Source: Mesorhizobium sp. CA14 (GTDB lineage Bacteria; Pseudomonadota; Alphaproteobacteria; Rhizobiales; Rhizobiaceae). Taken from it: a DNA stretch of 64,000 nt. A program made the position numbers and the translations under genes. The stretch spans positions 310,001 to 374,000 of the forward strand of contig NZ_JAIUHR010000003.1 of assembly GCF_020165195.1 (NCBI RefSeq), in the 5' to 3' direction. Positions 2,051-20,133 of this stretch are shown in pieces. Under the pieces are notes generated by a model, which saw only the letters and a list, made by a program, of their open reading frames with translations, was not told the DNA's origin and did no database searches. Position 1 is the stretch's first letter. Each line of letters begins with the position of its first letter.

Positions 2051-2142
2051 GGCTTGGGGCGCCAGTCGCCCTCTCTAGATTGTTCGTCCCGATTGGTAGA
2101 TCAATAGACGATATTTAACCAGCATGCAGAATCGGCGAGGCG

Positions 2143-3183: not shown

Positions 3184-3261
3184 GCAGCGGGCATAAACGC
3201 ACCACGCACGGTTCGTACCGCCTTCGCGGGGGGAGCGGCGGACCGGCAGGAGCGCGCCAGG

Positions 3262-3924
3262 TTACGATTTGGCCCGGGGTCTGTCCGGCTGTTCGTCTCG
3301 CCAGACAGCCGGGTAATATGGTGATGTTTGCAGCTTATGTCGGCCGACGGCCCAAGCCAGCGCCTCTTCGAGCCTATCGTCGCCCCAGAAAGTTTCGCCC
3401 TCCACGACGAATGCCGGAGCGCCGAAAATGCCATAGTTGCGGGCCGCATCCGTTTCCGCCTCGAGACGCTCATGGGCGCTGGGCTGGTCGGCCTTGGCAA
3501 TCACATCATCGACATCTTGCCCCAGGGGAGGCAGCACATGTTCCAGATGGCCGCGATCGCCCAGTGCCATGCCTTCCAGGTACCAGGCCCTGAAGCTTGC
3601 CACGGTGTAGGCCTCGCACCAGCCCTCTTCGGCCGCCACCATGGCGGTGCGATTGGCCAGAAGGTTCGGATCAGTCGGCCAGGTCGGGGGCCGAACATAT
3701 GGCACGCCGTGCGTTGCCGCACGCCGCTCCACATCGCGCCACATGTACTTCACCTTTGCCGTCTGGGTGCGGAGGGCAATATTGTTCTCGGCCATGACGG
3801 TGCGGACATTGAAGGGGCGCCATCGAACGGCAACGCCCGACTGCTTCGCCATGGCGCCAATGCGCATCACCGACAGATATGAGTAGCCGCTCCCGAAGAA
3901 ATAGAAGAAGTCGAGTTGCTTCAC
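3262..3924 (-). CDS. DsbA-family oxidoreductase / 2-hydroxychromene-2-carboxylate isomerase-like
   Basis: Cytoplasmic thioredoxin-fold protein of the kappa-GST/HCCA isomerase family. The N-terminus reads DFFYFFGSGYSYLS, the usual strand-turn carrying the glutathione-contacting serine, and the C-terminal part has GIFGAPAFVVEGETFWGDDR, the cis-Pro loop and closing helix of this family. Family members use glutathione to isomerise aromatic degradation intermediates; the substrate here is unknown. The GTG at 3924 is chosen because GAGGGAGG sits 8 bases upstream; an ATG at 4008 gives a longer, unsupported N-terminus. It is first in a run of minus-strand accessory-looking genes. Confidence 0.8.
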   Translation of the reverse strand: MKQLDFFYFFGSGYSYLSVMRIGAMAKQSGVAVRWRPFNVRTVMAENNIALRTQTAKVKYMWRDVERRAATHGVPYVRPPTWPTDPNLLANRTAMVAAEEGWCEAYTVASFRAWYLEGMALGDRGHLEHVLPPLGQDVDDVIAKADQPSAHERLEAETDAARNYGIFGAPAFVVEGETFWGDDRLEEALAWAVGRHKLQTSPYYPAVWRDEQPDRPRAKS

Positions 3925-3986
3925 TTCCACCGCCTCCCTCAATCTGCATTCCGCTCGAGCGCGTCGTCGGCTCGAGATCAGCCCCG

Positions 3987-4362
3987 TCAGGCCGAAATGA
4001 TCGCCCATAGCTGCGTCACCCCCATCGCAAGAACGAGGGTGACGCTTGCTCCGATGAACAGCGCCGTGGGTATCTGCTTCAGGTGAGCGCCGAAGCGGCT
4101 GGCTGAGAAGTCCTCGACTGCATCGTCCAGCATTGCCTTTAAGTCATCCATGGCGGCCTTGGCTGCCAAGACCCCATAAACCGTGATCGCGACCAAAATC
4201 GTCGCGAGCGCGAACCTGGCGGCTAGTCCCGCTGATGGTCCGTGCCAATATCGCGAACATAGTCGCGATATTGGCGAAAAAAATGATCGCATACGTCTGC
4301 GTCAGATGGGCAAGTCGCGCAGCCGCCGCCACCAAGTATTGATCAACGGTGAGTTTCGCCAT
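3987..4362 (-). pseudogene. Small membrane protein split by a frameshift
   Basis: The ATG at 4362 has a very good ribosome binding site (GGAGGAGAAC). Reading from it gives MAKLTVDQYLVAAAARLAHL and a membrane segment ending in FAILARTISG near 4220. A one-base skip there joins it to a second frame that continues with LAARFALATILVAITVYG, an amphipathic stretch, and a last hydrophobic segment ending ALFIGASVTLVLAMG. The joined product would be about 124 aa with three membrane segments. Each half alone is an unnatural fragment. A real inactivating insertion, a sequencing error or recoding are all possible; no slippery heptamer is seen at the junction. The family is not recognised. Confidence 0.6.
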
Positions 4363-4406
4363 GTTCTCCTCCGGCAAGTGACCTGCTTGGGCAGCCATGC
4401 TAAACT

Positions 4407-4859
4407 TCATTTCGCGGGATCGGAGTTCCATATATCCCGGTAGAGCTTCCAGTTGCCGTCTTGTCCTTTCTTCCAGACCACCACATACTTCCCGGTGGTT
4501 TCCACCAGCTTCGAATCCTTACCCGGTGCCTTGAGGGAGAAAGTCCCGGACTCGTATGCAAGATCTCCGCTTTCCTGGACCTCAAGCGTGGTGAGCGTGA
4601 GATCCGATATGCCCATATCGATCGCGCCCTGCCACAGTTTTTGGATATTCTGGCGACCGTCGACTCGCGCCATATCTGGCGGGAATGCGGCCGCATCGTC
4701 CGCGTACTTCGACGCGACTCCGGCCGCATCCTTACTGTTGTAGGCCTTCACGAACTCTGCATTAGCGGCTTCAATGGCTTCTTTCGCAGACTGGGCCTGG
4801 GCCGATCCGAGGCAGAGCGACATGAAAACAACGACCAGCAGATAATGATTGAAAGTCAT
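4407..4859 (-). CDS. SnoaL-like / DUF4440-type secreted protein
   Basis: A 150-aa protein with a clear Sec signal peptide (residues 1-22, cut after SAQA). The mature part is an NTF2-like alpha+beta barrel: [20 protein letters not shown] is the first helix of SnoaL/DUF4440 proteins, and the end has WKLYRDIWN, the last strand. Members bind small hydrophobic ligands or act as isomerases, but no activity can be assigned. The ATG at 4859 follows GGGAGGATGAG. It lies between the frameshifted membrane gene and an MFS exporter on the same strand and may be co-transcribed with them. Confidence 0.8.
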
Positions 4860-4932
4860 CTCATCCTCCCGTGTTCCAGTCTCTGGTTACTAGCTTCTCC
4901 ACAGTGGAGAGGAATAGTTTTGCTTGCGTGTT

Positions 4933-6111
4933 TTACGTTGATGGAAGGGCAGCAGGCCGATTCCGGCCAGCAACGATACGGCGGAAGAGCAACAGAATGA
5001 CCGGACAAACCAGGAGCGCGACGGCCCCGAAATCCAGCGCCGCGCTGGCGGAGCCGAGCGACGTGGAAAGCTTTCCGCCAATCGCCGATCCAACCGGGCT
5101 CCCGGCATAGAAGGTCGTATAGAATATTCCCATTCCGATCGCCCGCGTCTTTGGCTCGAGCACGCGCGCAGGAAGGCTCATGATGGCACCGGCAGGCAGG
5201 CCGCAAACGGTCCCGACGGCCATGACGACAGGAAGCACCTGGCCGCTTCGCGACAGGAGAACCGTCGACAGCGCAAAGCCAATGCAGCCTGCGACAATGA
5301 TAGCTTCGCCGCGCTTGGTCAGATCAGCGAGGAAGTCTCCGAAGGGAACCGAAATCGCCGTGAGCCACAGCACGATGCTGATCGTTGATCCAGCTGCAGC
5401 CATGGACCAGCCTCGCTCGACGAGCATCGTTGGGCCGAAACTGAAGATCATCACCAAACCGAGATTGTAGAGACACCAGATCGAGCTGGCGGCAATCACC
5501 GCATAGACCGTTTCCGAGGTCACACTGCCTGGCTCGCCGTCAACGGAGACGGCCGCCGCCGGCGCGCGGTAGAAAAAAGCCATGAGGACAAGGCCAATCA
5601 GGATCCACCCTGCGACGGCAAGATTGACGAGATGAAGCCCGAACCTTGTTGCGATCCATGGCAGGAGCATGAGCGAGATTGCGATGCCTACCGGCCACGA
5701 GTTGACGAAAATGGCCATCGCGGTTGCGATTTCACGACCGGCAAACCAGTCGGCGACCATCTTGGTCATCAGAACGCTCAGGAGAATGCCGCCAGTGCCG
5801 GCAATCAGCCGGCCTGCGATTTGCACGCTCCATGACGCCGACGCAGTCATCAGCAATTCGCCAGCCAGCATCGCCAGGATCGCGGCGAGGACCGTCGCCT
5901 TGTCGCCGTAGCGGCGCCCGATAGCGCCGCCGGGGAAGGCGAGCAGGACGCCCGGCGCAAAGTAGATTCCGATAAGGATCCCGATGTCAGCCAAGCTCGC
6001 GCCGAGGCTTTGGCCAAGCTGTGGCGCTACAGCCCCGACGCTGCCAAACTGAAAGGCGAAGGCGGCGCGAGCGACGAACAAGACAGCAAGAATGGTCCAG
6101 CGGCTTCGCAC
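4933..6111 (-). CDS. MFS transporter
   Basis: Inner-membrane transporter of the major facilitator superfamily with about 12 hydrophobic segments; the loop after segment 2 carries GGAIGRRYGDKA, the MFS motif A position. It resembles cyanate/CynX-type or drug-exporter MFS proteins, but the substrate is unknown. The GTG at 6111 is preferred because GGGAGGG lies 7 bases upstream; an in-frame ATG at 6147 has only a weak site almost touching it, and a TATAAG at 6155-6160 could be its -10, giving a short leader that includes the GGGAGGG. It heads the minus-strand accessory-looking group. Confidence 0.85.
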   Translation of the reverse strand: MRSRWTILAVLFVARAAFAFQFGSVGAVAPQLGQSLGASLADIGILIGIYFAPGVLLAFPGGAIGRRYGDKATVLAAILAMLAGELLMTASASWSVQIAGRLIAGTGGILLSVLMTKMVADWFAGREIATAMAIFVNSWPVGIAISLMLLPWIATRFGLHLVNLAVAGWILIGLVLMAFFYRAPAAAVSVDGEPGSVTSETVYAVIAASSIWCLYNLGLVMIFSFGPTMLVERGWSMAAAGSTISIVLWLTAISVPFGDFLADLTKRGEAIIVAGCIGFALSTVLLSRSGQVLPVVMAVGTVCGLPAGAIMSLPARVLEPKTRAIGMGIFYTTFYAGSPVGSAIGGKLSTSLGSASAALDFGAVALLVCPVILLLFRRIVAGRNRPAALPST

Positions 6112-6597
6112 TTGGATCCCTCCCAGCCGCCGCGCGGCGAGCGGCATGCTCTTCTTATATTAGCAGAACGACATGTAACCCGCTAGGCGATAAGGGGTGG
6201 GGCACGGTCCTCGCTTCCTAAAGAAGCATCTCACGCCTGCTGTGCAGGTCGGGCTCGTGAACCCTTGCTAGTCGAAAGCCTGTCATATCGTTCAACAGCG
6301 TAAGCGGTCTTTGCCGATGTCAAGGTGGCAGGCTAACATTGGGCATCACTCCGTGCGCTGAACGTGCTGAGCGACATCGACGGTCAGTACACCGTCTTCG
6401 TCCTTGATTAGGATAGCGAACCGTCCGTAGCCGGCTTGGCTTTCTGGCGTCGGCACGCCAACATTCGTTCGCTCAGTTCGGGACGTTTTCGGGCCTCTTC
6501 GTTCCGGAACGGGCGATTTGAACGCCTTATGTTCGGAATTTGCGTGAGGGGCCAAAAGGCACCTCGGCAAATAGGCTAGGGATTTCAAGGCTTTAAA
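6112..6597. other. Intergenic stretch without a convincing gene
   Basis: About 480 bases between the MFS gene and the tRNA. Near 6155 is the probable promoter of the MFS gene. An 80-codon minus-strand frame at 6346-6588 exists but has no ribosome binding site and no family resemblance. A perfect palindrome GTTCCGGAAC lies near 6510. The region directly follows the 3' end of the tRNA and could be a remnant of an integration site, but I found no repeat of the tRNA 3' end. Confidence 0.4.
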
Positions 6598-6674
<77 letters not shown>

Positions 6675-6687
6675 GACCGGGTGGCGA

Positions 6688-6715
6688 TGTATCGTGATAA
6701 GGCGGTGCGGGTCAA
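6688..6715 (-). promoter_or_regulatory. Probable sigma-70 promoter of tRNA-Pro
   Basis: On the minus strand, -35 TTGACC (6710-6715), a 16-base spacer and -10 GATACA (6688-6693), ending 14 bases before the mature tRNA 5' end at 6674. The position and match to consensus fit a stable-RNA promoter. Confidence 0.6.
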
Positions 6716-6728
6716 CCGAATTCGGTGC

Positions 6729-8093
6729 CTATCGCGCAGGTGACATTGCAAGGAGGGATTCAGGTCTCGCCAGCCGCAATTCCCGCTGGTGCCGGTACTC
6801 CAGCGCAATTGCGCCCCAGACCAGGCCGAGCAGCAGGTAGAGGTGGCGCCAGTGGTCGATGTCGATGAAGGTGCCGAGCCCGATATTGCCGAGATAGGCG
6901 ACATAGGCGCAAAGCAGATAGGGCTGCCATGGCCGGTCGCGCAACAGGATGCGGAAGCCGGCCCCGATCGTCCATAGCGTCAGCGTCAGGAACGAGACGA
7001 AGCCGAGCCAGCCATAGTCCATCAGCGCCTTCAGCCAGATGTCGTGCGTGTCCTCGCCATAGATCGTGCCGAAGACCAGCGGGCCGATGCCGAACGGGTG
7101 CTCCATCGCCAGCTGAAAGCCGATCGAATAGCGGGCGAAGCGGCCAAGCCGCGCCGAATCATAGCTCTGCTCGAGTTGCGCGCGCTGCGTGAACATGTCC
7201 GACACGCCGGGCAACTGCAGGATGACGATGAAGGCGATGACCAGCAGCGCCATGGCCGCGATCGTCATCACCACGACCCGCAGCCGGAACTTGCCGCTGG
7301 CGCTCTGCAGGAAGAGGCACGCGGTGAGCAGCACCGCCGACACGGCAAACATGCCCCAGGCGCCGCGCGAGAAGGAGAAGAAGATGCCGGCGCTGATGAT
7401 GAGCAGCGGCACGGCCAGAAGCGGCATCCGTGGCACCGGGCCGGTCAGGAGCAGGTAGAGCAGGTAGGTGCCGGGCAGCACCAGGAATGGGCCGAACACG
7501 TTCGGGTCCTGGAAAGCGCCGGCGGCGCGGTCGTATTTGGTGAACATTTCCGCGCCCGGAAACGCATGGAAGTAGCCGGCGATGCCGAGCAGCGACGTCG
7601 CCACCGCCGACACGACATAGGCGATGAAGATCAGCCGGTAGAGGCTCGGCTGGACCGAGGTCACCGAAGCGAAGAACACCGCGCTGAAGGCCAAAAACAG
7701 CGAGACGGCGAGATAGAGCGGCGTGTTGGCGAGGTCCGCCATCTGCGTCATGGCGATCATGCCGCCGGTGTTCATCGCCACCAGAAGCACCAGCAAGGGC
7801 ACGATCGCGCGCGAGATCCGAAGCCCGAACAGCGCCAAGACCGCGATCAGCCCGGCCATGTAGATCTCGTAAGGCGCGGGTTCGCTGATGACGAAGCCGG
7901 AGAGCAGGATGCCGATGCCGATCGCCGCCGACGCGATCAGCGAGATCAACTTCGCGTTGACCGCCTGCGGCGGCAACTTGTTGACCGCCCGCGCTTGCAA
8001 CTGGTTGACCGCCTGCGGCTGCAACTGGTTGACCGCCTGCGGCGGCAATTTGTTGACCGCCCCCGGCTGCAACTCATGGGCGACGGCGCTCAA
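6729..8093 (-). CDS. O-antigen ligase / Wzy-like polysaccharide polymerase
   Basis: Inner-membrane protein with about ten to eleven hydrophobic segments and a large periplasmic loop containing GRFARYSIGFQLAMEHPFGIG and the TYGEDTHDIWLK-like segment (GTIYGEDTHDIWLK), hallmarks of the Wzy_C/WaaL family. It would polymerise or ligate lipid-linked repeat units. The start is TTG at 8093, overlapping the stop of the upstream transferase gene by four bases (translational coupling). The first 45 residues are odd: five eight-residue repeats of the type xLxPQAVN precede the first membrane segment (see 7957-8076). It is the last gene of the minus-strand polysaccharide operon. Confidence 0.85.
   Translation of the reverse strand: MSAVAHELQPGAVNKLPPQAVNQLQPQAVNQLQARAVNKLPPQAVNAKLISLIASAAIGIGILLSGFVISEPAPYEIYMAGLIAVLALFGLRISRAIVPLLVLLVAMNTGGMIAMTQMADLANTPLYLAVSLFLAFSAVFFASVTSVQPSLYRLIFIAYVVSAVATSLLGIAGYFHAFPGAEMFTKYDRAAGAFQDPNVFGPFLVLPGTYLLYLLLTGPVPRMPLLAVPLLIISAGIFFSFSRGAWGMFAVSAVLLTACLFLQSASGKFRLRVVVMTIAAMALLVIAFIVILQLPGVSDMFTQRAQLEQSYDSARLGRFARYSIGFQLAMEHPFGIGPLVFGTIYGEDTHDIWLKALMDYGWLGFVSFLTLTLWTIGAGFRILLRDRPWQPYLLCAYVAYLGNIGLGTFIDIDHWRHLYLLLGLVWGAIALEYRHQRELRLARPESLLAMSPAR
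7957..8076. repeat. Five tandem 24-bp repeats inside the ligase gene
   Basis: Five head-to-tail units of exactly 24 bases, each starting TTGACCGCC on the plus strand, with a few differences between units. Translated on the minus strand they give ELQPGAVN, KLPPQAVN, QLQPQAVN, QLQARAVN and KLPPQAVN at the cytoplasmic N-terminus. The unit keeps the reading frame, so copy number could vary by slippage without breaking the gene. Confidence 0.9.
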
Positions 8094-9625
8094 TAGGCGT
8101 TTTCCGTGTTGAGCAGGCGGATCGGCGTCAGGAACAGGATGCGCAGGTCGAACAGCATCGACCAGTTCTCGATGTAATAGAGGTCGTATTCGGTGCGCAT
8201 GCGGATCTTTTCATTGGTGTCCATCTCGCCGCGCCAGCCGTTGATCTGCGCCCATCCGGTGACGCCGGGCTTGACCTTGTGGCGGGCGAAATAGCCGTCG
8301 ACCACTTCGTTGTAGAGCAGGTTATGCGACTGCGCGGCGATGGCATGCGGGCGTGGCCCGACTAGCGACAGCGAACCGAAGAGCGAGTTGAAGAACTGCG
8401 GCAGCTCGTCGATCGACGTCTTGCGGATGAAGCGTCCGACGCGCGTGACACGCGGATCGTTCTTGGTCACCGTCTGCTTGGCGGTTGGATCGGACCGGTC
8501 GGTAAACATCGAGCGGAACTTGTAGACCTCGATGATCTCGTTGTTGAAGCCGTGCCGCTTCTGCTTGAACAGCACGGGACCCTTGCTGTCGAGCTTGATG
8601 GCGATCGCGGTGGCGAGCATCACCGGCGAAAAGAGGATGATGCCGACAAGCGAGAAGACGATGTCGAAGGCGCGCTTGGCGACCGAATCCCAATCGTTGA
8701 TCGGCTTGTCGAAGATGTCGAGCATCGGCACCGAGCCGATATAGGAATAGGCGCGGGGCCTGAACTGCAGCGCATTCGAATGCGCCGAGAGCCGGATGTC
8801 GACCGGCAGAACCCAGAGCTTCTTCAGAAGCTGCAACACGCGCGATTCGGCGGTTAGCGGCAGCGACACGATCAGCATGTCGATGCGCGCGATGCGGGCG
8901 AATTCGATGAGCTCCGAGATCGTACCCAGCTTCGGATAGCCAGCGACGATCGGCGGCGAGCGCTTGTCGTTGCGGTCGTCGAAGATGCCGCAGATGCGGA
9001 TGTCGTTGTAAGGCTGCTTCTCGACCGAACGGATCAACTGCTCGGCCGTCTTGCCGCCGCCGACGATGAGCGCGCGACGCTCCATGCGGCCGTCGCGCGC
9101 CCAGCGCCGGATTAGGCTGGACATTACGAGTCTCAGGCCGAAGATCAGCACGAAGCCGACCACGAACCACGTGCCGAACAACAGGCGCGAATAGTCTTCC
9201 GACGCCTTGATGGCGAAGGCGGTGAGCGCCATCAGCGCGAAGCTGCCGGCCCAGACAAGCAGCACCCGGCCGAAATTGGCGAGGGGGCGCATCAGCGCCG
9301 CGATCTGGTAGCTGTCGGTAACGTCGAGCAGCACCACGGCCAGGAACGATGTCGCCGCCATAGCCAGCGGATATTGCCAGGCCAGATAGGTGAAGAAGCC
9401 GACATAGTAGAAATAGACGCCGAGCCCCGACAGGAAGAGCACTGCGAACTCGACCATGCGCAGCACGCCGCTGACCATGATCGGCGACATGGTATCGCGC
9501 CGGTATTGCGAAGCGACCTGGCGCGCCACATCGTTGATGCCGCCAGGCTTGTCGCCATCGGCGGGAGCATCGTAGTTGCGCACCGCATCCATGGAAAAGC
9601 GGTGCGCGGGGTCGATCTCATTCAT
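8090..9625 (-). CDS. Undecaprenyl-phosphate sugar-1-phosphate transferase (WcaJ/HfsE type)
   Basis: Initiating enzyme of polysaccharide synthesis: transfers a sugar-1-phosphate from a nucleotide sugar to undecaprenyl phosphate at the inner membrane. The 511-aa protein has the long WcaJ-type architecture: four to five N-terminal membrane segments (about 45-170), a CoA_binding_3 / Rossmann-like domain (about 175-310, with ALIVGGGKTAEQLIRSVE), and the C-terminal catalytic domain starting KRAFDIVFSLVGIILFSPVM with KFRSM, DELPQFFN and GPRPHA. The sugar specificity cannot be read from sequence. It sits between a GT4 gene and the polymerase/ligase on the same strand. Confidence 0.92.
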   Translation of the reverse strand: MNEIDPAHRFSMDAVRNYDAPADGDKPGGINDVARQVASQYRRDTMSPIMVSGVLRMVEFAVLFLSGLGVYFYYVGFFTYLAWQYPLAMAATSFLAVVLLDVTDSYQIAALMRPLANFGRVLLVWAGSFALMALTAFAIKASEDYSRLLFGTWFVVGFVLIFGLRLVMSSLIRRWARDGRMERRALIVGGGKTAEQLIRSVEKQPYNDIRICGIFDDRNDKRSPPIVAGYPKLGTISELIEFARIARIDMLIVSLPLTAESRVLQLLKKLWVLPVDIRLSAHSNALQFRPRAYSYIGSVPMLDIFDKPINDWDSVAKRAFDIVFSLVGIILFSPVMLATAIAIKLDSKGPVLFKQKRHGFNNEIIEVYKFRSMFTDRSDPTAKQTVTKNDPRVTRVGRFIRKTSIDELPQFFNSLFGSLSLVGPRPHAIAAQSHNLLYNEVVDGYFARHKVKPGVTGWAQINGWRGEMDTNEKIRMRTEYDLYYIENWSMLFDLRILFLTPIRLLNTENAY

Positions 9626-9724
9626 GGGAACTGTCCGCGAGCTTCGCGCAACTGCATAGCAAAAGAGAGCTAAGAAACCCTTGAAACAACCGGTGGTTTT
9701 GAAGCGGTTGAGCCGGCTGCGTAC

Positions 9725-10855
9725 CTACTTGTTCAGCGCGGCGAAATAGGCCTTCTCGATCTCGGCCGCCATCACATCGGCTCCGAACCGAGCTTTGAGC
9801 TCATTTGTCTGCGGCATGGCCTTCCGATACGCGTCGCGGTCGCCGAACACTGTTTCCATTTTGCCCGCAAGTTGCGAGGGATCCGGCCGGATAAGGGCGG
9901 GGGAGTCTTCGCCGAAGATTTCCGGAATGCCGCCGACCGCGGTCGCGATCATCGGCATGCCGGCGGCCAAAGCCTCGAGCACGATATAGGGCATCGCCTC
10001 CGCGCGGGATGGCACCACGATCAACTCGGCCAGAGCGAAAGCTTGTCTCGCCGGCATGGGCGGCAGGAATCGAACATGGCTCTTCAGGCCGAGTCGCTCC
10101 ACTTGCGCATGGTAGCGCGGCAGGTCGTCGCCGTCGCCGACCATTACGGCGCTCAACGAACGGCCCAACGCGCTGCCGGCCAAAGCCAGGGCATCGATGA
10201 AGATATCCGGACCTTTCAGATCGCGCATCATGCCGATGTATAGAAAATCGGCGGCATTCGCCGCCGTCGCCACCGGTTCGAATTCGGCGGCGCGCAGGCC
10301 GTTGTAAACAAGCGTGTTGGGTATGGGCGGCTCGCCCACTTTGCGGCGATAGGTGTTGCGCTCATAGTCGGAAACGAACAGCAGGCAGTCGGTGAAGCGC
10401 GCCATGAAGCGCTCCAGGCCGAAGAACACCTTTCCCGTCGCCGTCGTTTCGTCATAGTGGAGAGAGCCGCCATGCGGCGAATAGAGGCGGGCAACGCGAA
10501 ACCTTGATACCCGCAACAGTGAGCCGAACAGCCGGGCATAGGCGCCACCCTTGGCGCCGTGCCCGTGCAGCACGTCCGGCCGCAATTCCTTGATGATTCG
10601 ATAGGTGCGCCAGGCCGAGGCGAGATCGCCCGGCCCGACATGGCGCTGCATCGGCGTGCGATGGATGCCGAGCGCGAGGCGGTCCTTCATCGCCTCGAAC
10701 AGCCGCTCCTCATAGTCGCCGCCGGTCGTCGAGTCGCAGACGATTCCCACCGCATGGCCGGCGGCGACCTGCGCCTCGGCCAGGTCGCGCACATGCCGGA
10801 AGATTCCGCCGACAGGTGAGCGAAAGCAGTGGACGATCCTGAGAGTCACCGCCAC
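9725..10855 (-). CDS. Glycosyltransferase family 4
   Basis: GT-B fold glycosyltransferase adding a sugar to the lipid-linked repeat unit on the cytoplasmic face. The N-terminal glycine loop is HCFRSPVGGIFRHVRDLAEA; the C-terminal donor domain carries the E-x7-E motif in PSRAEAMPYIVLEALAAG followed by AVGGIPEI. Length 376 aa is normal for GT4. The GTG at 10855 lies only 10 bases after the stop of the export lipoprotein gene, so the two are co-transcribed. It is the only glycosyltransferase other than the initiating enzyme in this cluster, which implies a simple repeat unit or further transferases elsewhere. Confidence 0.88.
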   Translation of the reverse strand: MAVTLRIVHCFRSPVGGIFRHVRDLAEAQVAAGHAVGIVCDSTTGGDYEERLFEAMKDRLALGIHRTPMQRHVGPGDLASAWRTYRIIKELRPDVLHGHGAKGGAYARLFGSLLRVSRFRVARLYSPHGGSLHYDETTATGKVFFGLERFMARFTDCLLFVSDYERNTYRRKVGEPPIPNTLVYNGLRAAEFEPVATAANAADFLYIGMMRDLKGPDIFIDALALAGSALGRSLSAVMVGDGDDLPRYHAQVERLGLKSHVRFLPPMPARQAFALAELIVVPSRAEAMPYIVLEALAAGMPMIATAVGGIPEIFGEDSPALIRPDPSQLAGKMETVFGDRDAYRKAMPQTNELKARFGADVMAAEIEKAYFAALNK

Positions 10856-10865
10856 GACGGATTTT

Positions 10866-11429
10866 TCAGAACAGGCGTTCGCGGACGTAGACGGTGTCGC
10901 CGGGCAGGAGCGGATCGGATGTCAGCACTCGTCCGGTCATCACCTTGCCGTTGATGTCGCGGGTGATGTCGACGCTCTCTTGATTGGCGCGCGGCGTGAA
11001 GCCGCCGGCGATGGCGACCGCCTTTTGCACGGTGAGTCCCGGCACATAGGAGTACTGGCCGGCAGCGCCCACTTCGCCCATGACGAAGATCGGCCGGTAG
11101 CGGTCGATTTCGACCGAAACGTCAGGATCGCGCAGATAGCCTTGGCGCAGCTTGTCGGCGATCTCTTTTTCCAACTGCTGCGCGGTGTGGCCGCGCGCCG
11201 GCACCGCGCCGACCAGCGGGAAGGAGAGATAGCCGGACTGGTCGACGCTGTATGTGTTGGTCAACCCGTCCTGCTCGAACACCGTGACACGGACGCGATC
11301 GCCGGCGCCGAGTCGATAGGGCTGGTCGAGCACCTCGTGAAAGGCGGCGGGTGTCGGGCGGTAACTCGAGCAACCGGTGAGCAGCGATAGGGCAAGCAAA
11401 GCGCGAAAGAGGGAAGCAGTGCTTTTCAT
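10866..11429 (-). CDS. Polysaccharide export outer-membrane lipoprotein (Wza/HfsD type)
   Basis: Outer-membrane export component. The start at ATG 11429 gives a lipoprotein signal with lipobox LLTGC, followed by the Poly_export domain (YRLGAGDRVRVTVFEQDG) and a SLBB segment (RPIFVMGEVGAAGQYSYVPG). At 187 aa it is the short form lacking the large C-terminal part of E. coli Wza, as is common in alphaproteobacterial GumB/HfsD proteins. A longer frame to 11588 exists but lacks a signal peptide in a sensible position. It leads the minus-strand operon (export, GT4, initiating transferase, ligase) and is divergent from the co-polymerase at 11692. Confidence 0.92.
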   Translation of the reverse strand: MKSTASLFRALLALSLLTGCSSYRPTPAAFHEVLDQPYRLGAGDRVRVTVFEQDGLTNTYSVDQSGYLSFPLVGAVPARGHTAQQLEKEIADKLRQGYLRDPDVSVEIDRYRPIFVMGEVGAAGQYSYVPGLTVQKAVAIAGGFTPRANQESVDITRDINGKVMTGRVLTSDPLLPGDTVYVRERLF

Positions 11430-11691
11430 GACCGGCCAGGAACCTTCATCGCTCTTGCCGCAAGCCGCGGCACAACCCCAGGAAAGTGCGACCGTTATCG
11501 TCCCGTTAGGGTTAATGGGCGGTAAAGGAGCTGGTCCGGGACCGCGCTGATCGGCAAAAAGCCCAATTGTTCTATTGCTTTCGAGCAATCTTCTTTGAGT
11601 GCCCTCTAATAAGCACGCATTTTGATCTTAACGGGTGAGTTACCATAGTTGTTTACGGTCCATCCTCGACTCAAAGTTCGGAGCAGGATGC
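11430..11691. promoter_or_regulatory. Divergent promoter region of the polysaccharide cluster
   Basis: 262 bases between the export lipoprotein (minus) and the co-polymerase (plus), AT-richer than its surroundings toward the right. It contains a perfect inverted repeat ATTGCT-TTCG-AGCAAT at 11574-11589, a candidate operator or hairpin, and GGTTAATGGGCGG near 11514. No promoter hexamers were assigned with confidence. Confidence 0.45.
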
Positions 11692-13932
11692 ATGTCCGTT
11701 CAGTCCGCGGCCGCAGATGTCGATGTCGATCTGAGGCAGCTTTTCGCCAGCCTGGCGCGAAACTGGTTGCGCATTGTTCTGGTGACCCTCGTGGTCACCG
11801 GGCTCGCCTTCGCCTTGGCTTGGCTCGCGACGCCTTATTATAAGGCGACAGCCAAGCTGGAGATTGGCTCGCGCGAATCGGAATACACACGGCCGCCGGG
11901 CACCAACGACGACGAGAAGCCGATTCTCGACGAACAGGGCGTGGCCACCCAGGTCCAGATCATTTCCTCGCCCGACATCCTCAAGCAGGTGGCGACCAAG
12001 CTCAATCTGGACAAGCTGCCGGAGTTCGATGAAACGCTGAAGATGTCGGCGCTCGGGCGCGTGCTCGTTCTTGTCGGCTTGAAAAGCGATCCCTTCGATA
12101 TTCCGCCGGAAGAGCGCGTGCTGAATGCCATGCACGACAAGCTCAATGTCTATGCCGTTGAAAAGACGCGTGCGATCGCCATCGAATTCGCCTCGAAGGA
12201 CCCCAAGCTTGCGGCGGCGATCGCGAATGGCATCGCCGACGCCTATATCGCCTCGAAGAGCGACGCCAAGCTCGAATCGAACGCCGCCGCCACCGACTTC
12301 CTGGCGCCGGAAATCGCTGACCTGCAGAACAAGGTGAAGGACGCCGAGGCCAAGGTCGCGGCCTTCCGAGCCCAGTCCGATCTTCTGATGGGTGGCAACA
12401 ATGCGGTGCTTGCGACTCAGCAACTCGCCGAACTGTCGAGCGAGTTGTCGCGCGTGCGCGCCAGCCGCGCCGCTGCCGAGGCGAGCGCGGAAAGCGTGCG
12501 CCGGGCGCTGCAGAATGGCGGTTCGCTGGACAGCGTGCCGGAAGTCCTGTCCTCGGATCTGATCCAGCGCCTGCGCGAGCGCCAGGTGGAGCTGCGGGCC
12601 AACATTGCCGATCTTTCCACGACCTTGCTCGACAACCATCCGCGCATCCGTGCGCTGAAGTCGCAGCTTGCTGACCTCGACGGCCAGATTCGCAATGAGG
12701 CGCAAAAGATCATCCGGGGGCTGTCGGCTCAGGCCCAGACGGCCAAGGCCCGCGAGGATCAGCTGATCGCGGACGTCAACACGCTGAAAGCCGCCTCGGG
12801 GAGAGCCGGCGAGCAGCAGGTGCAGCTGGACGCCTTGCAGCGCGACGCGAACGTCCAGCGCCAACAGCTTGAATCCTATATGGCAAGTTACAATGCGGTC
12901 GCCTCGCGCAAGGATCGCAGATACTCGCCCGTCGCGGCGAATCTGATCGCGCGAGCCCAGGTGCCGTCCCAGCCCTATTTCCCGAAGATCGGGCCTATCA
13001 CCGGGGCTGCCGCCGCCGCTTCGCTGCTGCTGATGGCGATCGGCACGCTGCTTGGCGAGCTGTTCTCGGGCCGCGCCATGCGTCCCGCCGCCGGCACCCG
13101 TTTCACCGATATCGAGCAGGTGGCGATGCCTGCGGCCAGGGTGGAACCCATGGTCGCCGAGGCACATGATGAGGGTCGGGCTTTTGCGCCTTACGGGGAC
13201 ACCGCGGCAGGACATTCGATCGCGGAAGCGGAACTCCCGAGACCGGCCGAGAGCGAGCCGGCGGAGGATCGCGCAACCGCCATGGAGACCTCCGGACCGA
13301 GCGAACCGATGCCTGAACCAAGGCAATCCAGGCTCGGCGAGATCGATGTCGAAAAGGCTGCGGAGAAGCTGATCGCCTCAGGCGCCGCGCGCGCGATCTT
13401 CGTGTCGCCGGAAGGCGACGAGGCGGCCGCGTCCGCCGTGCTCGTGGCCCGCGAAGTATCCGACGCCGGCCTGCGCGTGTTGCTGCTTGATCTGACCGCG
13501 TCGGGCGCGGCGTCGCGGCCGATGCTGGACTCGAGCCTGTTCCCGGGCATCACCAATCTGCTCGCTTCCGAAGCGCAGTTCAGCGACGTCATCCATCCCG
13601 ATCTCTATTCGGATGCGCATGTCATTCCGGTAGGCACCGCCGATCCGGTCCGCGCCATGCGCGCCGCCGACCGGCTGCCCATCATCATGCAATCGCTGAC
13701 CACGGCCTACGACCTCGTCGTGGTCGAATGCGGCCCGGCCGATGCGCAGGGCATCGGCCGTCTGGTCGGCGACGGCACCGAAGTCTTCTTGTCGATGCTG
13801 GAAGCCGACGACCAGGTGACCCAGGCAGCGGTGAAGCTGATCGAGAACGGCTACCCGAATCTCATGCTGGTGACGCCGATCGGCCATGAACCGCCCGGAA
13901 CGCCTGTGCCGGGCAGGCGGTCGGCCGCCTGA
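11692..13932 (+). CDS. Wzz/Wzc-type polysaccharide co-polymerase with degenerate kinase domain
   Basis: Inner-membrane chain-length/export protein of 746 aa. Residues about 10-110 hold the Wzz domain with membrane segment 1 (NWLRIVLVTLVVTGLAFALA); about 180-410 is a periplasmic coiled coil ending in the GNVR-like region; membrane segment 2 is near residue 440. The C-terminal 190 residues follow the BY-kinase fold (VLLLDLTASG at Walker A', DLVVVECGP at Walker B) but the P-loop reads SPEGDEAAAS, without the GK[S/T] residues, and no tyrosine-rich tail follows. It therefore looks like a co-polymerase fused to a pseudo-kinase, comparable to HfsA plus HfsB. ATG 11692 is behind AGGA. Confidence 0.88.
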   Translation: MSVQSAAADVDVDLRQLFASLARNWLRIVLVTLVVTGLAFALAWLATPYYKATAKLEIGSRESEYTRPPGTNDDEKPILDEQGVATQVQIISSPDILKQVATKLNLDKLPEFDETLKMSALGRVLVLVGLKSDPFDIPPEERVLNAMHDKLNVYAVEKTRAIAIEFASKDPKLAAAIANGIADAYIASKSDAKLESNAAATDFLAPEIADLQNKVKDAEAKVAAFRAQSDLLMGGNNAVLATQQLAELSSELSRVRASRAAAEASAESVRRALQNGGSLDSVPEVLSSDLIQRLRERQVELRANIADLSTTLLDNHPRIRALKSQLADLDGQIRNEAQKIIRGLSAQAQTAKAREDQLIADVNTLKAASGRAGEQQVQLDALQRDANVQRQQLESYMASYNAVASRKDRRYSPVAANLIARAQVPSQPYFPKIGPITGAAAAASLLLMAIGTLLGELFSGRAMRPAAGTRFTDIEQVAMPAARVEPMVAEAHDEGRAFAPYGDTAAGHSIAEAELPRPAESEPAEDRATAMETSGPSEPMPEPRQSRLGEIDVEKAAEKLIASGAARAIFVSPEGDEAAASAVLVAREVSDAGLRVLLLDLTASGAASRPMLDSSLFPGITNLLASEAQFSDVIHPDLYSDAHVIPVGTADPVRAMRAADRLPIIMQSLTTAYDLVVVECGPADAQGIGRLVGDGTEVFLSMLEADDQVTQAAVKLIENGYPNLMLVTPIGHEPPGTPVPGRRSAA

Positions 13933-13984
13933 GGGCAAAAGCGCGACAGTGCTGAAGCCGCGCCGTCCGTTTAAAGCGCGACGA

Positions 13985-15214
13985 TCAGTTATCGTCCTCG
14001 GCGGGAGCGGGCGCCGCCTGTCCGGCAGCCTTGCGGCGCAGCATCTTGGTCAGTTTCCAGATCGTCGGGTTGCTCTTGATGAAGGCCTTGGCGCGCGCGC
14101 CTTGCCGCAGCCCTGTCGCCAGCACCCGGCCCTTCAGCGTCAGCGGCGCAAGCACCTCGAAATGCTGGACTTCGATGTCGCACCAGAGCCGCTTGTAAGG
14201 CTCGTCGCCGACCGAGAAGTCATACACGTCGAAGCCAAGCTCGCAGGCCTGCTGGATGTTGTCGAAGAACAGGAAGTCGCCCGGGCTGGTGAAGGAGAGA
14301 TCGTCCTCGGCAATGGCGCCGAACTCGCAGATCAGCCGCTTGCCGGACCGACTTGAGCCGGTCACAGCGCGCAGCTTGCCCGCCACATCCAGGCCGTGCA
14401 GCAGGAAGGGCGGCTTTTCCTCGGCCAGCGCATCGGCGAACAGCGCCCGGAAGAAGTCGCGTACCTGCCTGTCGCCGAAGACATTGGCGATGCCCATCTT
14501 GGCGAAACGCACTTCCTTCATCTCGAAGAAGGCATCGAGTAGCCTGTCGACCTCTTCGCGAGTGCGGGCCTCGATGCGGCGGAAGGCGCCGACAGCCTCG
14601 AACTTGCGCGTCTGCGAGCGGTGCTTCTTGCGCTTGCGCTTGCCGCTCGCGCGTGACAGCAGCGCGTCGAAACCGCCGTCGAGATCGACCGCGAGAGCGA
14701 GGTTCGGACTTGGGAAGCCGGACAGCGCGGCGAGCGGATTGGCGACGCCGTCAAGGTCGGGCAGCAGCCTTTCCAGTGAGATCAGGTCGATGTCCGGCCG
14801 CTTTCGGGCGATTGCCTCGAACATTGAGTGGATCACAGGGCTGTCGATAGCAGGGAGGAGCCGCGGGTCAGCAGCGGCGAAATTGCCGTTGGCATGCCGA
14901 CCTCCGGCGAAACGGGCAACCTTGAATGGGCCGCGTCGCACGACTTCCAGCGCCAAAGATAGCGCCGGGCGGCCATCGCGGGAGAGCGTCGCGACAACCA
15001 TGTCGGCGCCTGTCACGGCCGCCCAGCTGTTCACCCATGATGCGCTTTGCGCGGGCGCAAACAGCGCCGAGGCGCAGAATTGAATGTAATCGGCAAGGCC
15101 CGCGCCGCCGCTTGCAGCCGCAGTCCACCGATCCTGATCGGCTCGCATCGGGCGCGCGGAAGCTTCGTTGGCCGCGACCCGATTGCCGTCAAATGACGCG
15201 GTGGCGTCAACCAT
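13985..15214 (-). CDS. CelD/HfsK-type GNAT acyltransferase
   Basis: Cytoplasmic protein of 409 aa with two GNAT-like halves, as in the CelD/BcsL (Acetyltransf_6) and HfsK families. The second half has the basic KRKRKKHRSQTRKFEAVG stretch, then LDAFFEMKEVRFAKMG, and the fold core FTSPGDFLFFDNIQQACELG with YDFSVGDEPYKRLW. In Caulobacter the related HfsK is a predicted acyltransferase that modifies holdfast polysaccharide. Given its place between the co-polymerase and the deacetylase, modification of the same polysaccharide is likely. The C-terminal tail is basic and Ala/Pro-rich. Confidence 0.82.
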   Translation of the reverse strand: MVDATASFDGNRVAANEASARPMRADQDRWTAAASGGAGLADYIQFCASALFAPAQSASWVNSWAAVTGADMVVATLSRDGRPALSLALEVVRRGPFKVARFAGGRHANGNFAAADPRLLPAIDSPVIHSMFEAIARKRPDIDLISLERLLPDLDGVANPLAALSGFPSPNLALAVDLDGGFDALLSRASGKRKRKKHRSQTRKFEAVGAFRRIEARTREEVDRLLDAFFEMKEVRFAKMGIANVFGDRQVRDFFRALFADALAEEKPPFLLHGLDVAGKLRAVTGSSRSGKRLICEFGAIAEDDLSFTSPGDFLFFDNIQQACELGFDVYDFSVGDEPYKRLWCDIEVQHFEVLAPLTLKGRVLATGLRQGARAKAFIKSNPTIWKLTKMLRRKAAGQAAPAPAEDDN

Positions 15215-15304
15215 CCCTCAATCCTTAAGACGTATTGGTTGCAACCTGGGGTTCGCATAGGCGAATGTCGTGCTTGAATAAGCCTAGGCGCAAAAGGTGA
15301 AGGA

Positions 15305-16363
15305 ATGATCGACGGGGGCGAGGCAATCCGGAAACTGGCGTTGAACTTTGCCCGCTACTCCGGTCTCGCGCCGTTGGCCCGGCCGTTTTTCGGCGGCATC
15401 GGCGCTATCCTGATGCTGCACCGTGTCACCGCGACACCGGAGAAGCCGAACAGCTTCAATCGGCATCTGAATATCGCTCCCGCCTTCCTCGACAGGCTGA
15501 TCGCGGACATGAAGGGGCGCGGTTATGCCTTTGTTTCCCTTGATGAAGCGATCGAACGCATCAAGCTGGGTGGCAAAGGCGGCCAGTTCGCGACAATCAC
15601 TGCCGACGACGCCTATCGCGACAACATGACCGAGGCGCTTCCGATCCTGGAACAGCACGGCGCGCCGATCACCATTTACGTCGCCCCCGGCCTGATCGAC
15701 GGCGCCGTCGATCTCTGGTGGGACATGATCGAGGACATCGTCGACATCAGTTCGCGCGTGACGCTGACGATGGCTGGCAAGCCGACGGTGATCGATTGCT
15801 CGACACAGGGCCGAAAGATCCAGGCCGTCGCGCGGCTGAACGCCTGGCTGACGTCGGAAGTCCCCGAGGAAGAGCAGGGCGCTACGCTGCGTGAACTGGC
15901 CCGTTCGAACGGCCATGAATTCGGCACAGGCCGCCCGTGCACCTTGATGAATTGGGATGAGCTTCGCACCATGGCCGCCCATCCGCTGGTGACCATCGGC
16001 GCGCACACCGTCAATCATCGGAACTTGAAGCGGCTTTCCGAACCCGATGCGCGGCATGAGATCGGCGACGTCCGCCGCATCCTCAAGGAAAAGCTCGGCG
16101 AGGAGCCGCGTCATCTGGCTTATCCTTACGGCTATGCCAGCGCCGTCAGTTGCCGCGAGGTGGGCTTTGCCCGCGACGCAGGCTATGCCTCGGCGGTGAC
16201 CACGCGGCACGGTGTGCTGCGTGCCGAGCATGCCGGTTTCCTGCACGCGCTGCCGCGCATCTCCGTCAATGGCCGCTATCAGAGCGTGGCGCATATCCGC
16301 ACGATGCTGTCCGGCATCACGACGCCGCTCGCCAATGCGGGCAGGATGGTCGTTACCGTCTAG
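15305..16363 (+). CDS. NodB-type polysaccharide deacetylase
   Basis: Carbohydrate esterase family 4 protein, 352 aa, that would remove N-acetyl groups from a polysaccharide. Motif 1 is TADDAYRDN instead of the usual TFDDGYxD, keeping both aspartates; motif 2 is HTVNH (metal histidines); LAYPYGY fits motif 3. There is no convincing signal peptide, as in HfsH-type deacetylases and several rhizobial EPS deacetylases. ATG 15305 follows AAGGTGAAGGA. It is divergent from the acyltransferase gene, with 90 bases between them, and closes the polysaccharide cluster. Confidence 0.88.
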   Translation: MIDGGEAIRKLALNFARYSGLAPLARPFFGGIGAILMLHRVTATPEKPNSFNRHLNIAPAFLDRLIADMKGRGYAFVSLDEAIERIKLGGKGGQFATITADDAYRDNMTEALPILEQHGAPITIYVAPGLIDGAVDLWWDMIEDIVDISSRVTLTMAGKPTVIDCSTQGRKIQAVARLNAWLTSEVPEEEQGATLRELARSNGHEFGTGRPCTLMNWDELRTMAAHPLVTIGAHTVNHRNLKRLSEPDARHEIGDVRRILKEKLGEEPRHLAYPYGYASAVSCREVGFARDAGYASAVTTRHGVLRAEHAGFLHALPRISVNGRYQSVAHIRTMLSGITTPLANAGRMVVTV

Positions 16364-16397
16364 GCCTGCCTCGCGCTTGCCTGACGCCTGTGAGGGG

Positions 16398-16613
16398 TCA
16401 GCCCTTCGGGTGCGGCTCGATGATCAGCCATTTGATGATGGCCATGGCCGGCAGAACCCAGAGAAAGCCGCTGAGCAGGAAGAACAGCAGATGCGCCGTA
16501 GGCCCGTATTCGGCAAGCTTGGTGACCGCGATGGCGGAGGCGATCAGCGCGTAGATGACGACCAGCGCCACCAGCAATATGGTACCGATCAGCTTTTTCA
16601 GGCGAATGGGCAT
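16398..16613 (-). CDS. DUF2842 small membrane protein
   Basis: A 71-aa protein with two hydrophobic segments (about 8-30 and 42-62) and the conserved layout of the alphaproteobacterial DUF2842 family: basic start MPIRLKKLIGTILLVALVVI, LLFFLLSGFLWVLPAM and the cytoplasmic end IKWLIIEPHP. Its function is unknown. It is frequently found beside the heme A synthase gene, as here, where it is divergent from ctaA with about 150 bases between. A longer frame to 16784 lacks support. Confidence 0.82.
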   Translation of the reverse strand: MPIRLKKLIGTILLVALVVIYALIASAIAVTKLAEYGPTAHLLFFLLSGFLWVLPAMAIIKWLIIEPHPKG

Positions 16614-16764
16614 GTCGCGGTTCCGTTGACCCGCCCCGCTTAGGCCGAATGACGAGAGCGCGCAACCGTCGCGGCCCGGCGCGACGGCGTGCCGCGCTGT
16701 CCAGTCTTGCCAGTTGAGCGGCCTTGGTCCACCAATCGCGCGTTTCAACCGCCGGGAGAGCGAA

Positions 16765-17856
16765 ATGGCTGCCATCACCGCCACAGCCCCCTATGCTGCA
16801 CGCGACCGCGACCGCCACAACCGCGCTTTGGTGCGCGGCTGGCTCTACATCGTGCTGCTCGTGCTGTTCGCGCTGGTGCTGGTCGGCGGTTCCACTCGTC
16901 TCACCGGCTCCGGGCTGTCGATCACTGAGTGGCAGCCGATACACGGCGTCATCCCACCGCTCAACGACGCCGAATGGCAGGAAGAGTTCCAGCGCTACCA
17001 GCAGATCCCGCAATATACCGAGATCAACAAGGGCATGAGTGTCGAGGACTTTAAGTCGATCTTCTGGTGGGAGTGGGCGCACCGCATCCTGGCGCGCAGC
17101 GTTGGCGTCGTCTTTGCCTTGCCGTTGCTATTCTTCTGGGCGACGCGCCGCATCGAACGAGGCCTCGGGCTGAAGCTCCTCGGCGTCCTTCTGCTCGGCG
17201 GACTGCAAGGCGCCATCGGCTGGTGGATGGTGGCTTCGGGCCTGGCCGACCGTGTCTCGGTCAGCCAATACAGGCTGGCGACGCATCTGACGCTCGCTGC
17301 GCTGATCTTCACCGCCACCATGGTGGTCGCGCGCGGCCTGGCGCCTCATTCGGAGCCCGCCGCCGACCGGTCGACGCAGCGGCTCGCGGGCTTCATCGTG
17401 CTTTTGGCGCTGATCCAGATCTATCTCGGCGGGCTCGTCGCCGGGCTGCACGCGGGCCTTTCCTACAACACATGGCCGCTTATGGATGGAAAGGTGATCC
17501 CGTCCGATCTGCTTCTCCTGAAGCCCGCCTGGCTGAACTTCTTTGAAAACCCGAAGACGGTGCAGTTCGTCCATCGGCTAGGCGCTTACACGATCTTTGT
17601 CGTGGCGCTCTGGCATATGATCGCGACGTGGAGGCGCCAGCCCGGCACCACCCATGCCCGCCGGGCCACGCTTCTGTTCGCGCTGGTGGTCGTCCAGGGC
17701 TCGATTGGCATCGGCACGCTGCTGATGCAGGTGCCGCTGCACATGGCGTTGACGCATCAGGCGATCGCGCTTGTGTTGCTCGGCTTCGCCGCCGCGCATT
17801 GGCGCGGCACCAAGGGCGCTTATCCGTTGCCGACGAAGGTGAGCGTCAGGAGCTGA
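16765..17856 (+). CDS. ctaA: Heme A synthase
   Basis: Eight-helix inner-membrane enzyme (COX15/CtaA) that oxidises the C8 methyl of heme O to make heme A for aa3-type oxidases. Conserved heme-ligand histidines are seen in [30 protein letters not shown] and LTHQAIAL. The segment [21 protein letters not shown] is the family signature (GG(S/L)TRLTxSGLS). Length 363 aa is normal for the long alphaproteobacterial form. The ATG at 16765 follows GGGAGAGCGAA; upstream in-frame codons are ignored. Its 3' end overlaps a possible 35-codon frame on the other strand. Confidence 0.95.
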
Positions 17857-19007: not shown

Positions 19008-20009
19008 CTATATGCCGTGCGCGCTTTGTAGCACGGCATGGGTGCCGTTGTTCAGATCCTCGAGCCGCACCTTTCGTTCGGCCACGAGGCCCAGATAGTG
19101 CATGGCGATCATCGATCCAGCGATCGCCGTAATATCGGCATGGTCGTAGGCAGGCGCAACCTCGACGACGTCGGCGCCGACGATATCGACCTGGCCGAGC
19201 TGGCGCAGCGTCGAGAGCATCTTGGCAGACGATGGACCGCCGGCAACCGGCGTGCCCGTGCCTGGCGCGAAGGCCGGGTCGAGGCAGTCGATGTCGAAGG
19301 TGAGATAGGTCTTTCTGCCGCCAGTCCGGTCGACGATCGCGTAGGCGATATCCGAAGCCCGCATCTCCTCCACCTCATGGCCGTAGAGGATCTTGATACC
19401 GAACGTGTCGGGCGCATGCGTGCGGATGCCGATCTGAATCGAGCGATCCGGGTCGATGATGCCCTCCTTCACCGCACGGGCAACGAAGGAGCCATGATCG
19501 ATGCGCTTGCCGTCATCCGGCCAGGTATCCTGATGCGCGTCGAACTGAACGAGCGCCAACGGCCCGTGGATCGCGGCATGCGCCTTGAGCAGCGGCCAGG
19601 TGACGAAATGATCGCCGCCGAGCGTCAGAAGGAAAGCGCCCGATCTCAGGATCTTGGCCGCCTCGCGCTCGATCGCGCCGGGGGTCTTCTGATGGTTGCC
19701 GCTGTCAAGCAGGCAATCGCCATAGTCGACCACCGCGAGTGGTTCGAACAGGTCGCGCGAGAAAGGGTATTGCGGATCGTTCTCGAGGATAGCCGAGGCG
19801 CGGCGGATCGCCTGCGGCCCGAAGCGGGCGCCCGGCCGATTGGTGACTGCGGCGTCAAAAGGAATGCCCCACACGACAGCGTCCGCACCCTTCACGTCCT
19901 TGGTGTATTTGCGCCGCATGAACGACAGCGCACCGGAATAGGCTGGCTCAAGTGCCGCCCCCGTTTTCGAACGGGCGGTGAAGGCGTGGTCGATCTCTTT
20001 ATTCGCCAT
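19008..20009 (-). CDS. speB: Agmatinase (ureohydrolase)
   Basis: Hydrolyses agmatine to putrescine and urea in the cytoplasm, using a binuclear Mn centre. Metal ligands are visible in LTLGGDH, QFDAHQD and FDIDCLDPAFAPGTGTP. The length of 333 aa suits the family. ATG 20009 is preferred to the upstream in-frame ATG at 20042 because it fits the family N-terminus (MANKEIDHAF). Related guanidino-acid hydrolases share these motifs, so substrate specificity is not certain. It is co-directional with argC, linking the arginine and polyamine steps. Confidence 0.88.
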   Translation of the reverse strand: MANKEIDHAFTARSKTGAALEPAYSGALSFMRRKYTKDVKGADAVVWGIPFDAAVTNRPGARFGPQAIRRASAILENDPQYPFSRDLFEPLAVVDYGDCLLDSGNHQKTPGAIEREAAKILRSGAFLLTLGGDHFVTWPLLKAHAAIHGPLALVQFDAHQDTWPDDGKRIDHGSFVARAVKEGIIDPDRSIQIGIRTHAPDTFGIKILYGHEVEEMRASDIAYAIVDRTGGRKTYLTFDIDCLDPAFAPGTGTPVAGGPSSAKMLSTLRQLGQVDIVGADVVEVAPAYDHADITAIAGSMIAMHYLGLVAERKVRLEDLNNGTHAVLQSAHGI

Positions 20010-20133
20010 TGCGGGTCCTCGGTTCTCATCGGGCAGCCACAACTACAGAACCGGCACGCAACATGCCAGTCACAGCTTGCGGAAACGAAACGGCGCTCGG
20101 CGAGTGCCACGGCAACACAGGATCTGTATCATT

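Follow-up and report, generated by a model that had tools for sequence, protein, structure and literature searches.

Gene content of the locus

The window, the whole 64,000-nucleotide stretch of DNA analysed here, is part of contig C23 in a genome of 6.07 Mb. Positions 6729–16363 contain seven linked polysaccharide genes, and each has a significant family match in Pfam or NCBIfam, so that the families and places that the earlier note gave for all seven are borne out. The genes form four blocks of alternating strand: a Wzy-type polymerase, an initiating transferase, a GT4 glycosyltransferase and an OPX export lipoprotein (reverse), a polysaccharide co-polymerase (forward), a GNAT acyltransferase (reverse) and a deacetylase (forward). 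The cluster is bounded by a tRNA-Pro gene (6598–6674) and by the heme A synthase gene ctaA/COX15 (16714–17856, forward strand; PF02628, 375.3 bits), which is a conserved chromosomal neighbour outside the pathway. A promoter scan found no sigma-70-like sites, against a mean of 1.9 in shuffled sequences. Terminator-like sites are in excess (14 found, 7.7 expected), but the excess has no obvious meaning.

The first reverse-strand gene (6729–8093) encodes a Wzy-type polymerase or O-antigen-ligase-like membrane protein with a Wzy_C domain (PF04932, 51.6 bits). It contains a five-copy, in-frame 24-bp tandem repeat (7956–8074, reverse strand; TRF) that encodes an octapeptide repeat at the polymerase N terminus, and the copy number of the octapeptide, counted by eye, varies among Mesorhizobium loci. 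Its TTG start codon overlaps the stop codon of the preceding gene (TTGA), an arrangement found in 11 of the 12 loci compared (the exception is L204; a thirteenth locus, L209, gave no row). The initiating transferase (8090–9625, reverse strand) is an undecaprenyl-phosphate glucose-1-phosphate transferase of the WcaJ/HfsE/UppE type and scores 487.2 bits on TIGR03023, above the cut-off of 410.75 bits. Of the family's 121 genomes, 108 have a strong match to it (E 1e-167 or better); across the order, 188 of 199 genomes have a match at E 0.001, with 45% identity or more in at least 150 of the 199. The GT4 glycosyltransferase (9725–10855, reverse strand; PF13439/PF00534) and the Wza-like outer-membrane export lipoprotein of the OPX family (10866–11429, reverse strand; PF02563, 86.8 bits, with SLBB) are assigned by domain match and synteny. 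The OPX protein probably starts at 11429, not at the listed open reading frame start of 11588, and has a lipobox, LSLLTGC, read by eye.

The co-polymerase (11692–13932, forward strand) has a Wzz domain and scores 773.6 bits on TIGR01005 (cut-off 411.7 bits). Its true start is probably 11692, the listed open reading frame start being 11635, and Met20 is methionine in 103 of the 110 aligned rows that have a letter there. The fusion of an HfsB-like domain to the co-polymerase that had been claimed earlier is real, in that a BY-kinase-like domain is present, though its P-loop is degenerate (SPEGDEAAAS). At the P-loop site 115 of the 128 aligned rows have letters (the other 13 are gapped), and none of the 115 has a GK[ST] motif within 15 columns; because a Walker A lysine is lacking in all of them, control through tyrosine autokinase activity of the co-polymerase is unlikely.

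The GNAT acyltransferase (Acetyltransf_6; 13985–15214, reverse strand; PF13480, 83.8 bits; synteny) and the CE4-type polysaccharide de-N-acetylase (Polysacc_deac_1; 15305–16363, forward strand; PF01522, 73 bits) are encoded by divergent neighbouring genes, and thus flank each other as had been noted. A simple hydropathy analysis detected no transmembrane segment in either protein, and both are predicted to be cytosolic.

Relationship to unipolar polysaccharide, exopolysaccharide and holdfast loci

The unipolar polysaccharide (UPP) is described, in the accessible text of a 2014 review, as a polysaccharide that is induced by surface contact, is located at one cell pole and binds the lectins WGA and DBA, and the Agrobacterium tumefaciens uppABCDEF genes (Atu1235–1240) as an incomplete Wzy-type cluster of six genes on which it depends (PMC4018554). 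The cluster is reported to be conserved in the Rhizobiales (PMC9980756). The window has six enzyme classes in common with uppABCDEF, together with their order, their orientation and the ctaA-argC-speB neighbours. At the locus of A. tumefaciens UMA610 (L145; the comparison strain is not C58, and no Atu locus tags turned up in the comparison), genes for a GNAT protein, co-polymerase, OPX protein, GT4 glycosyltransferase, initiating transferase and Wzy protein follow one another as in the window and adjoin the same chromosomal genes. What the window alone has is the seventh gene, the CE4 deacetylase gene between the GNAT gene and ctaA, to which the named Agrobacterium loci have no match.

In the six-gene cluster of the window the OPX gene is third and the initiating transferase gene fifth. 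The available portion of a study of Bradyrhizobium gives uppC as the OPX gene and uppE as the initiating transferase gene, describes uppABDEF as lying together with uppC elsewhere, and reports reduced root attachment of Bradyrhizobium ottawaense uppC and uppE mutants (PMC12727192). An 8-Mb genome (L108) has a upp block with no OPX match in the cluster. The window genes can be read as uppF-E-D-C (polymerase, initiating transferase, GT4 glycosyltransferase and OPX protein), uppB (co-polymerase) and uppA (GNAT), because the order matches that in A. tumefaciens UMA610 and because of the published roles of uppC and uppE, the six-gene cluster and the Bradyrhizobium arrangement; the letters A, B, D and F are assigned by position only. 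A point against this reading is that the 2014 review, in its accessible text, gives neither a Wzy protein nor a flippase as identified for UPP (PMC4018554), whereas the sixth gene carries a Wzy_C domain both in the window and in L145, where it scores 45.3 bits.

The locus is therefore a local copy of the known UPP locus of the Hyphomicrobiales and not the Caulobacter hfs locus. With a probability of roughly 0.8, we consider that the cluster is the UPP locus of a Mesorhizobium-like bacterium, that it was inherited vertically and that next to uppA it has a resident gene for a CE4 deacetylase. Of the earlier description of the locus as holdfast/UPP-like, the second half holds, given the gene order and neighbours shared with A. 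tumefaciens, and the match to a Caulobacter holdfast set fails on the HfsH tests and low identities given below.

The linkage is not a matter of chance, because all six non-deacetylase genes are matched in 75 of 80 named loci (the best 80 of at least 584 confirmed relatives, ranked by likeness to an Agrobacterium-like copy and so biased to that side). ctaA is matched in 73 of the same 80. Sixty stretches of up to 20 kb were compared, 40 chosen around the transferase within the family and 20 chosen around the deacetylase in other families. The family stretches contain matches to the OPX protein in 38 cases, the co-polymerase in 34, the Wzy protein in 31, the GT4 and GNAT proteins in 30 each, the deacetylase in 12 and ctaA in 36; the deacetylase-chosen stretches contain the transferase and OPX protein in 13 cases each, the co-polymerase in 15, the GT4, GNAT and Wzy proteins in 11 each and ctaA in 13. 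Only the transferase, OPX protein and a co-polymerase fragment, or less, were found in A. larrymoorei (L139) and several other genomes. At one named Mesorhizobium locus (L215), the stretch next to the co-polymerase gave no match to GNAT, to the deacetylase or to ctaA, and the stretch at L208 is too short to judge gene presence.

The upp genes are described as orthologous to the glucomannan (gmsA) system of Rhizobium leguminosarum (PMC4018554, accessible text), in which gmsA is reported to be needed for attachment to pea roots at pH 6.5–7.0 (PMC11406972). The polymer of that system is reported as glucomannan, the comparison with it being by description only.

Wzx/Wzy enzyme classes are common to exopolysaccharide (EPS) systems and the NCBIfam names of the co-polymerase and OPX protein are those of EPS families, which would suit a locus that makes an ordinary, succinoglycan-like EPS or capsule and not a polar adhesin. 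We consider this unlikely. The earlier note had named best reciprocal matches in EPS clusters, together with the lack of an adhesion phenotype, as the result that would count against its proposal; on checking, the orthologs sit in a syntenic block that fits upp, and a succinoglycan-type EPS locus was rejected on this basis. The genome also has a separate region, on contig C2, which we read as exo-like: it encodes an ExoY-like transferase of short length and contains both an OPX match and the genome's strongest match to the flippase family PF13440.

A true holdfast locus in the Caulobacter sense, with orthologs of HfsH and HfsK, is less probable still. The window shares with the hfsEFGHCBAD system of the Caulobacterales a Wzx/Wzy-type pathway and enzymes of the HfsE, HfsD, HfsA/B, HfsC, HfsH and HfsK types; HfsE and HfsD are related to UppE and UppC, and a predicted cytosolic deacetylase and GNAT protein fit the action on precursors proposed for HfsH and HfsK in the available part of one study (PMC5362036). 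Against this, the gene content differs. Pfam was used to read two hfs loci from Caulobacterales-like genomes, of which L239 encodes a flippase, GT2, deacetylase, Wzy, Wzz and OPX protein, and L240 a deacetylase, GT2 and OPX protein among the open reading frames scanned. The HfsF-type flippase and HfsG-type GT2, both present in L239, are not among the seven window genes, and in the window the co-polymerase and kinase-like domain are fused.

The identities are also low. The initiating transferase is 34–41% and the OPX protein 30–35% identical to those of six hfs-like loci (L239–L244), while the listed initiating transferases of other Hyphomicrobiales families are 45–62% identical to that of the window. 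BLASTP at 1e-3 gave no match between the Wzy protein and HfsC of L239. On the HfsE equivalog model NF050817 the initiating transferase scores 335 bits against a cut-off of 750, a weak test that only 1 of 40 Caulobacterales-like family genomes passes; the sole passer (L238) has no hfs neighbours, and both loci that we read as hfs stay below the cut-off (712 and 690). A search of three Caulobacterales-like genomes with the GNAT protein gave best matches, which may or may not be HfsK, at E 1e-4 and E 6e-4 in two of them and none in the third.

The deacetylase, which the earlier note had called HfsH, does not match the NCBIfam HfsH model at E 0.001; HfsH of L239 scores 391 bits on this model (cut-off 400). 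When HfsH of L239 was searched against the window genome, the best match was weak (E 3.6e-4, on contig C14) and none fell at the window locus. In a tree of 43 rows, 39 Hyphomicrobiales deacetylases are separated by long branches from four HfsH or HfsH-like rows (a quick method with SH-aLRT support only, the long branches being flagged by the program). On the combined evidence of model, cross-search and tree, the window deacetylase belongs to the same superfamily as HfsH and is judged not to be its ortholog. A true hfs locus was thus rejected on the HfsH, HfsE and gene-content tests.

The resident deacetylase and its distribution

The catalytic motifs of the deacetylase are intact. In CE4 carbohydrate esterases the TxDD and HxxxH motifs supply metal-binding and catalytic residues; here T99 and D101 of the first motif (T99-x-D101-D102) are conserved in 39 of 39 aligned rows and D102 in 38, as are H234 and H238 of the second (H234-x3-H238; 38 of 39). 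The predicted structure (mean pLDDT 71, with poor termini) has a fold nearest to PplD, PgaB and IcaB (Foldseek E 3e-12 to 2e-10), enzymes that act on GlcNAc. Fold and motifs are shared with these three proteins at only 14–19% identity; the window protein differs in having no transmembrane segment by simple hydropathy and in clustering with other Hyphomicrobiales deacetylases. Its nearest named relatives in the tree are from Mesorhizobium, which, together with the A. tumefaciens gene order and neighbours, backs the earlier proposal of an adhesin locus in a Mesorhizobium-like species, here of UPP type.

Deacetylase matches are found in 152 of the 199 order genomes. Places are listed for 143 of these, and for 150 of the 188 genomes with a transferase match, giving 134 genomes with both genes listed. 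In 97 of the 134 no more than 20 kb separates the deacetylase from the initiating transferase; the two genes are on opposite strands in 96 of these 97 pairs, and the median gap is 5.5 kb. The two are more than 20 kb apart on one contig in 7 of the 134 (two of them by 24–25 kb) and on different contigs in 30. Some of the different-contig cases may be assembly breaks; in several genomes (for example, G015, G010 and G166) the genes are truly apart, because both lie deep inside their contigs.

These 37 distant cases speak for another reading, in which the six-gene locus is the UPP locus and the deacetylase a mere neighbour with some other job, for example on peptidoglycan or LPS. The gene also stands alone on the forward strand, and 66 of the 80 named loci (again the best 80 of at least 584 relatives) match GNAT and ctaA but gave no deacetylase match. 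Two observations lead us to think such a bystander role improbable, if clearly less so than an EPS locus. Both genes are listed for 41 families, and 33 of these include genomes with the near position; one genome with no listed deacetylase place (G028) entered this family count, which stands because its family has other near cases. And in the window's own family, 42 genomes have deacetylase matches of at least 39% identity, and in 37 of them the match is close to the transferase (four of the other five have the genes on different contigs), against 1 of 45 for the weaker matches of 28–37%. This count covers 87 of the 93 genomes that match the deacetylase (the remaining six have weak or partial matches only), and transferase places were taken from genomes with a deacetylase row. 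Because the share near the transferase splits in this way with identity, the near and the far genes seem to be deacetylases of different kinds.

Among the 80 named loci the deacetylase is present at the locus in six, from four Mesorhizobium, one Pseudaminobacter and one unclassified alphaproteobacterium, and no match was found at the locus in Agrobacterium, Rhizobium, Ensifer, Shinella or Brucella among the matches listed. The simplest reading of this distribution is that the gene is old at this place and was lost in the lines of these five genera. As Agrobacterium, where UPP was defined, has no deacetylase match at the locus, the enzyme may be dispensable for adhesion or active on another glycan. 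A literature search turned up, among the papers listed, none that ties this deacetylase to UPP, key UPP papers being outside its reach.

Proposed pathway and significance

Returning to the reading of the cluster as a UPP locus with a resident deacetylase, a pathway can be proposed in which roles are assigned by enzyme type. The UppE-type transferase would load glucose-1-phosphate onto undecaprenyl phosphate, and the repeat unit would be assembled by the GT4 enzyme together with glycosyltransferases encoded elsewhere. On the cytosolic face, some N-acetyl-hexosamines would lose their acetyl groups to the deacetylase, and some sugars or freed amines would be acylated by the GNAT enzyme; the lack of a membrane segment in both proteins fits such modification of lipid-linked units, as proposed for HfsH and HfsK (PMC5362036, available part). 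A flippase encoded elsewhere would then turn the unit over, the Wzy protein would polymerise it, and the co-polymerase and OPX lipoprotein would export the polymer as a polar adhesin with free amines. We infer the identity of the sugars and the order of their modification, and likewise the polar placement and adhesion in the Mesorhizobium-like species.

The earlier proposal of a minimal set is not supported, and the cluster looks incomplete: it has no flippase and only one glycosyltransferase besides the initiating one, so other loci must contribute. A search of the genome with PF13440 gave flippase matches on contig C2 only: a strong one, which belongs to the exo-like region, and another that is weak and partial. 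Contig C67 encodes a flippase-like protein with no Pfam or NCBIfam match beside two glycosyltransferases, a GH5 protein and a second GNAT protein, and is a candidate for a partner locus. A WecG-family transferase gene is expected elsewhere in the genome, because Rhizobiales WecG-family transferases are reported to be able to replace Caulobacter HfsJ (PMC11340318, accessible text).

For the most part the locus is ordinary, being of a kind already known and new only for the species; the resident deacetylase is its mildly new point. A literature search for Mesorhizobium with 'unipolar polysaccharide' gave few matches, and in the text available the mention of UPP traced to a reference list only. 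The analysis gives Mesorhizobium an adhesin locus that has a name and can be tested, and it draws attention to a deacetylase that would be overlooked in models built on Agrobacterium. The deacetylase HfsH is reported to be required for holdfast sticking in Hirschia baltica (PMC8449245, available part).

We raise tentatively, as a possibility that the evidence does not yet favour, that the UPP locus ancestral to the Hyphomicrobiales comprised seven genes, one of them for a CE4 de-N-acetylase of its own, from a branch distant from HfsH. Deacetylation would then have been acquired independently by UPP and holdfast systems. The Agrobacterium, Rhizobium, Ensifer and Brucella lines would have lost the gene; in Agrobacterium a second Wzx/Wzy locus (L278) encodes an HfsH-like enzyme instead. 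If this is true, the UPP known from work on Agrobacterium would have a chemistry that is not typical of the Hyphomicrobiales.

Sequence features of the co-polymerase and Wzy proteins

The co-polymerase of the unipolar polysaccharide (UPP) locus carries a C-terminal BY-kinase-like domain (window 13370-13932). Its Walker A motif is degenerate in all 115 aligned rows that have letters at this site (115/115), and this domain is likely to be a pseudokinase of upp loci. The Wzy protein has an N-terminal octapeptide repeat, encoded by five in-frame tandem copies of a 24-bp unit at window 7956-8074. Elsewhere in Mesorhizobium loci the coding repeat is present in 1, 2 or 5 copies, as counted by eye.

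An OafA-type acyltransferase near the cluster

An Acyl_transf_3 (PF01757) acyltransferase is encoded at window 19978-21348, 3.6 kb past the deacetylase gene. UPP in A. tumefaciens is reported (PMC11340318) to need the OafA-family enzyme UppZ.

Related loci in this and other genomes

The upp locus is reduced in some relatives (L119, L120, L139 and L140), including Agrobacterium larrymoorei (L139), where matches are confined to the transferase, OPX and a kinase-like fragment. In an Agrobacterium-like genome, an HfsH-like deacetylase, a second Wzy, Wzx and a GT2 cluster together (L278, G383:C5:54001-74000, at 9785-16415), possibly forming a second UPP pathway.

The window's own genome contains a second small sugar locus (L279, G000:C67:114001-130000, at 1538-8096), comprising a GH5, two GTs, an Acetyltransf_6 paralog and a flippase-like protein to which Pfam profiles gave no match. 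This locus is a candidate partner that would supply the flippase and further glycosyltransferase steps missing from the UPP cluster.
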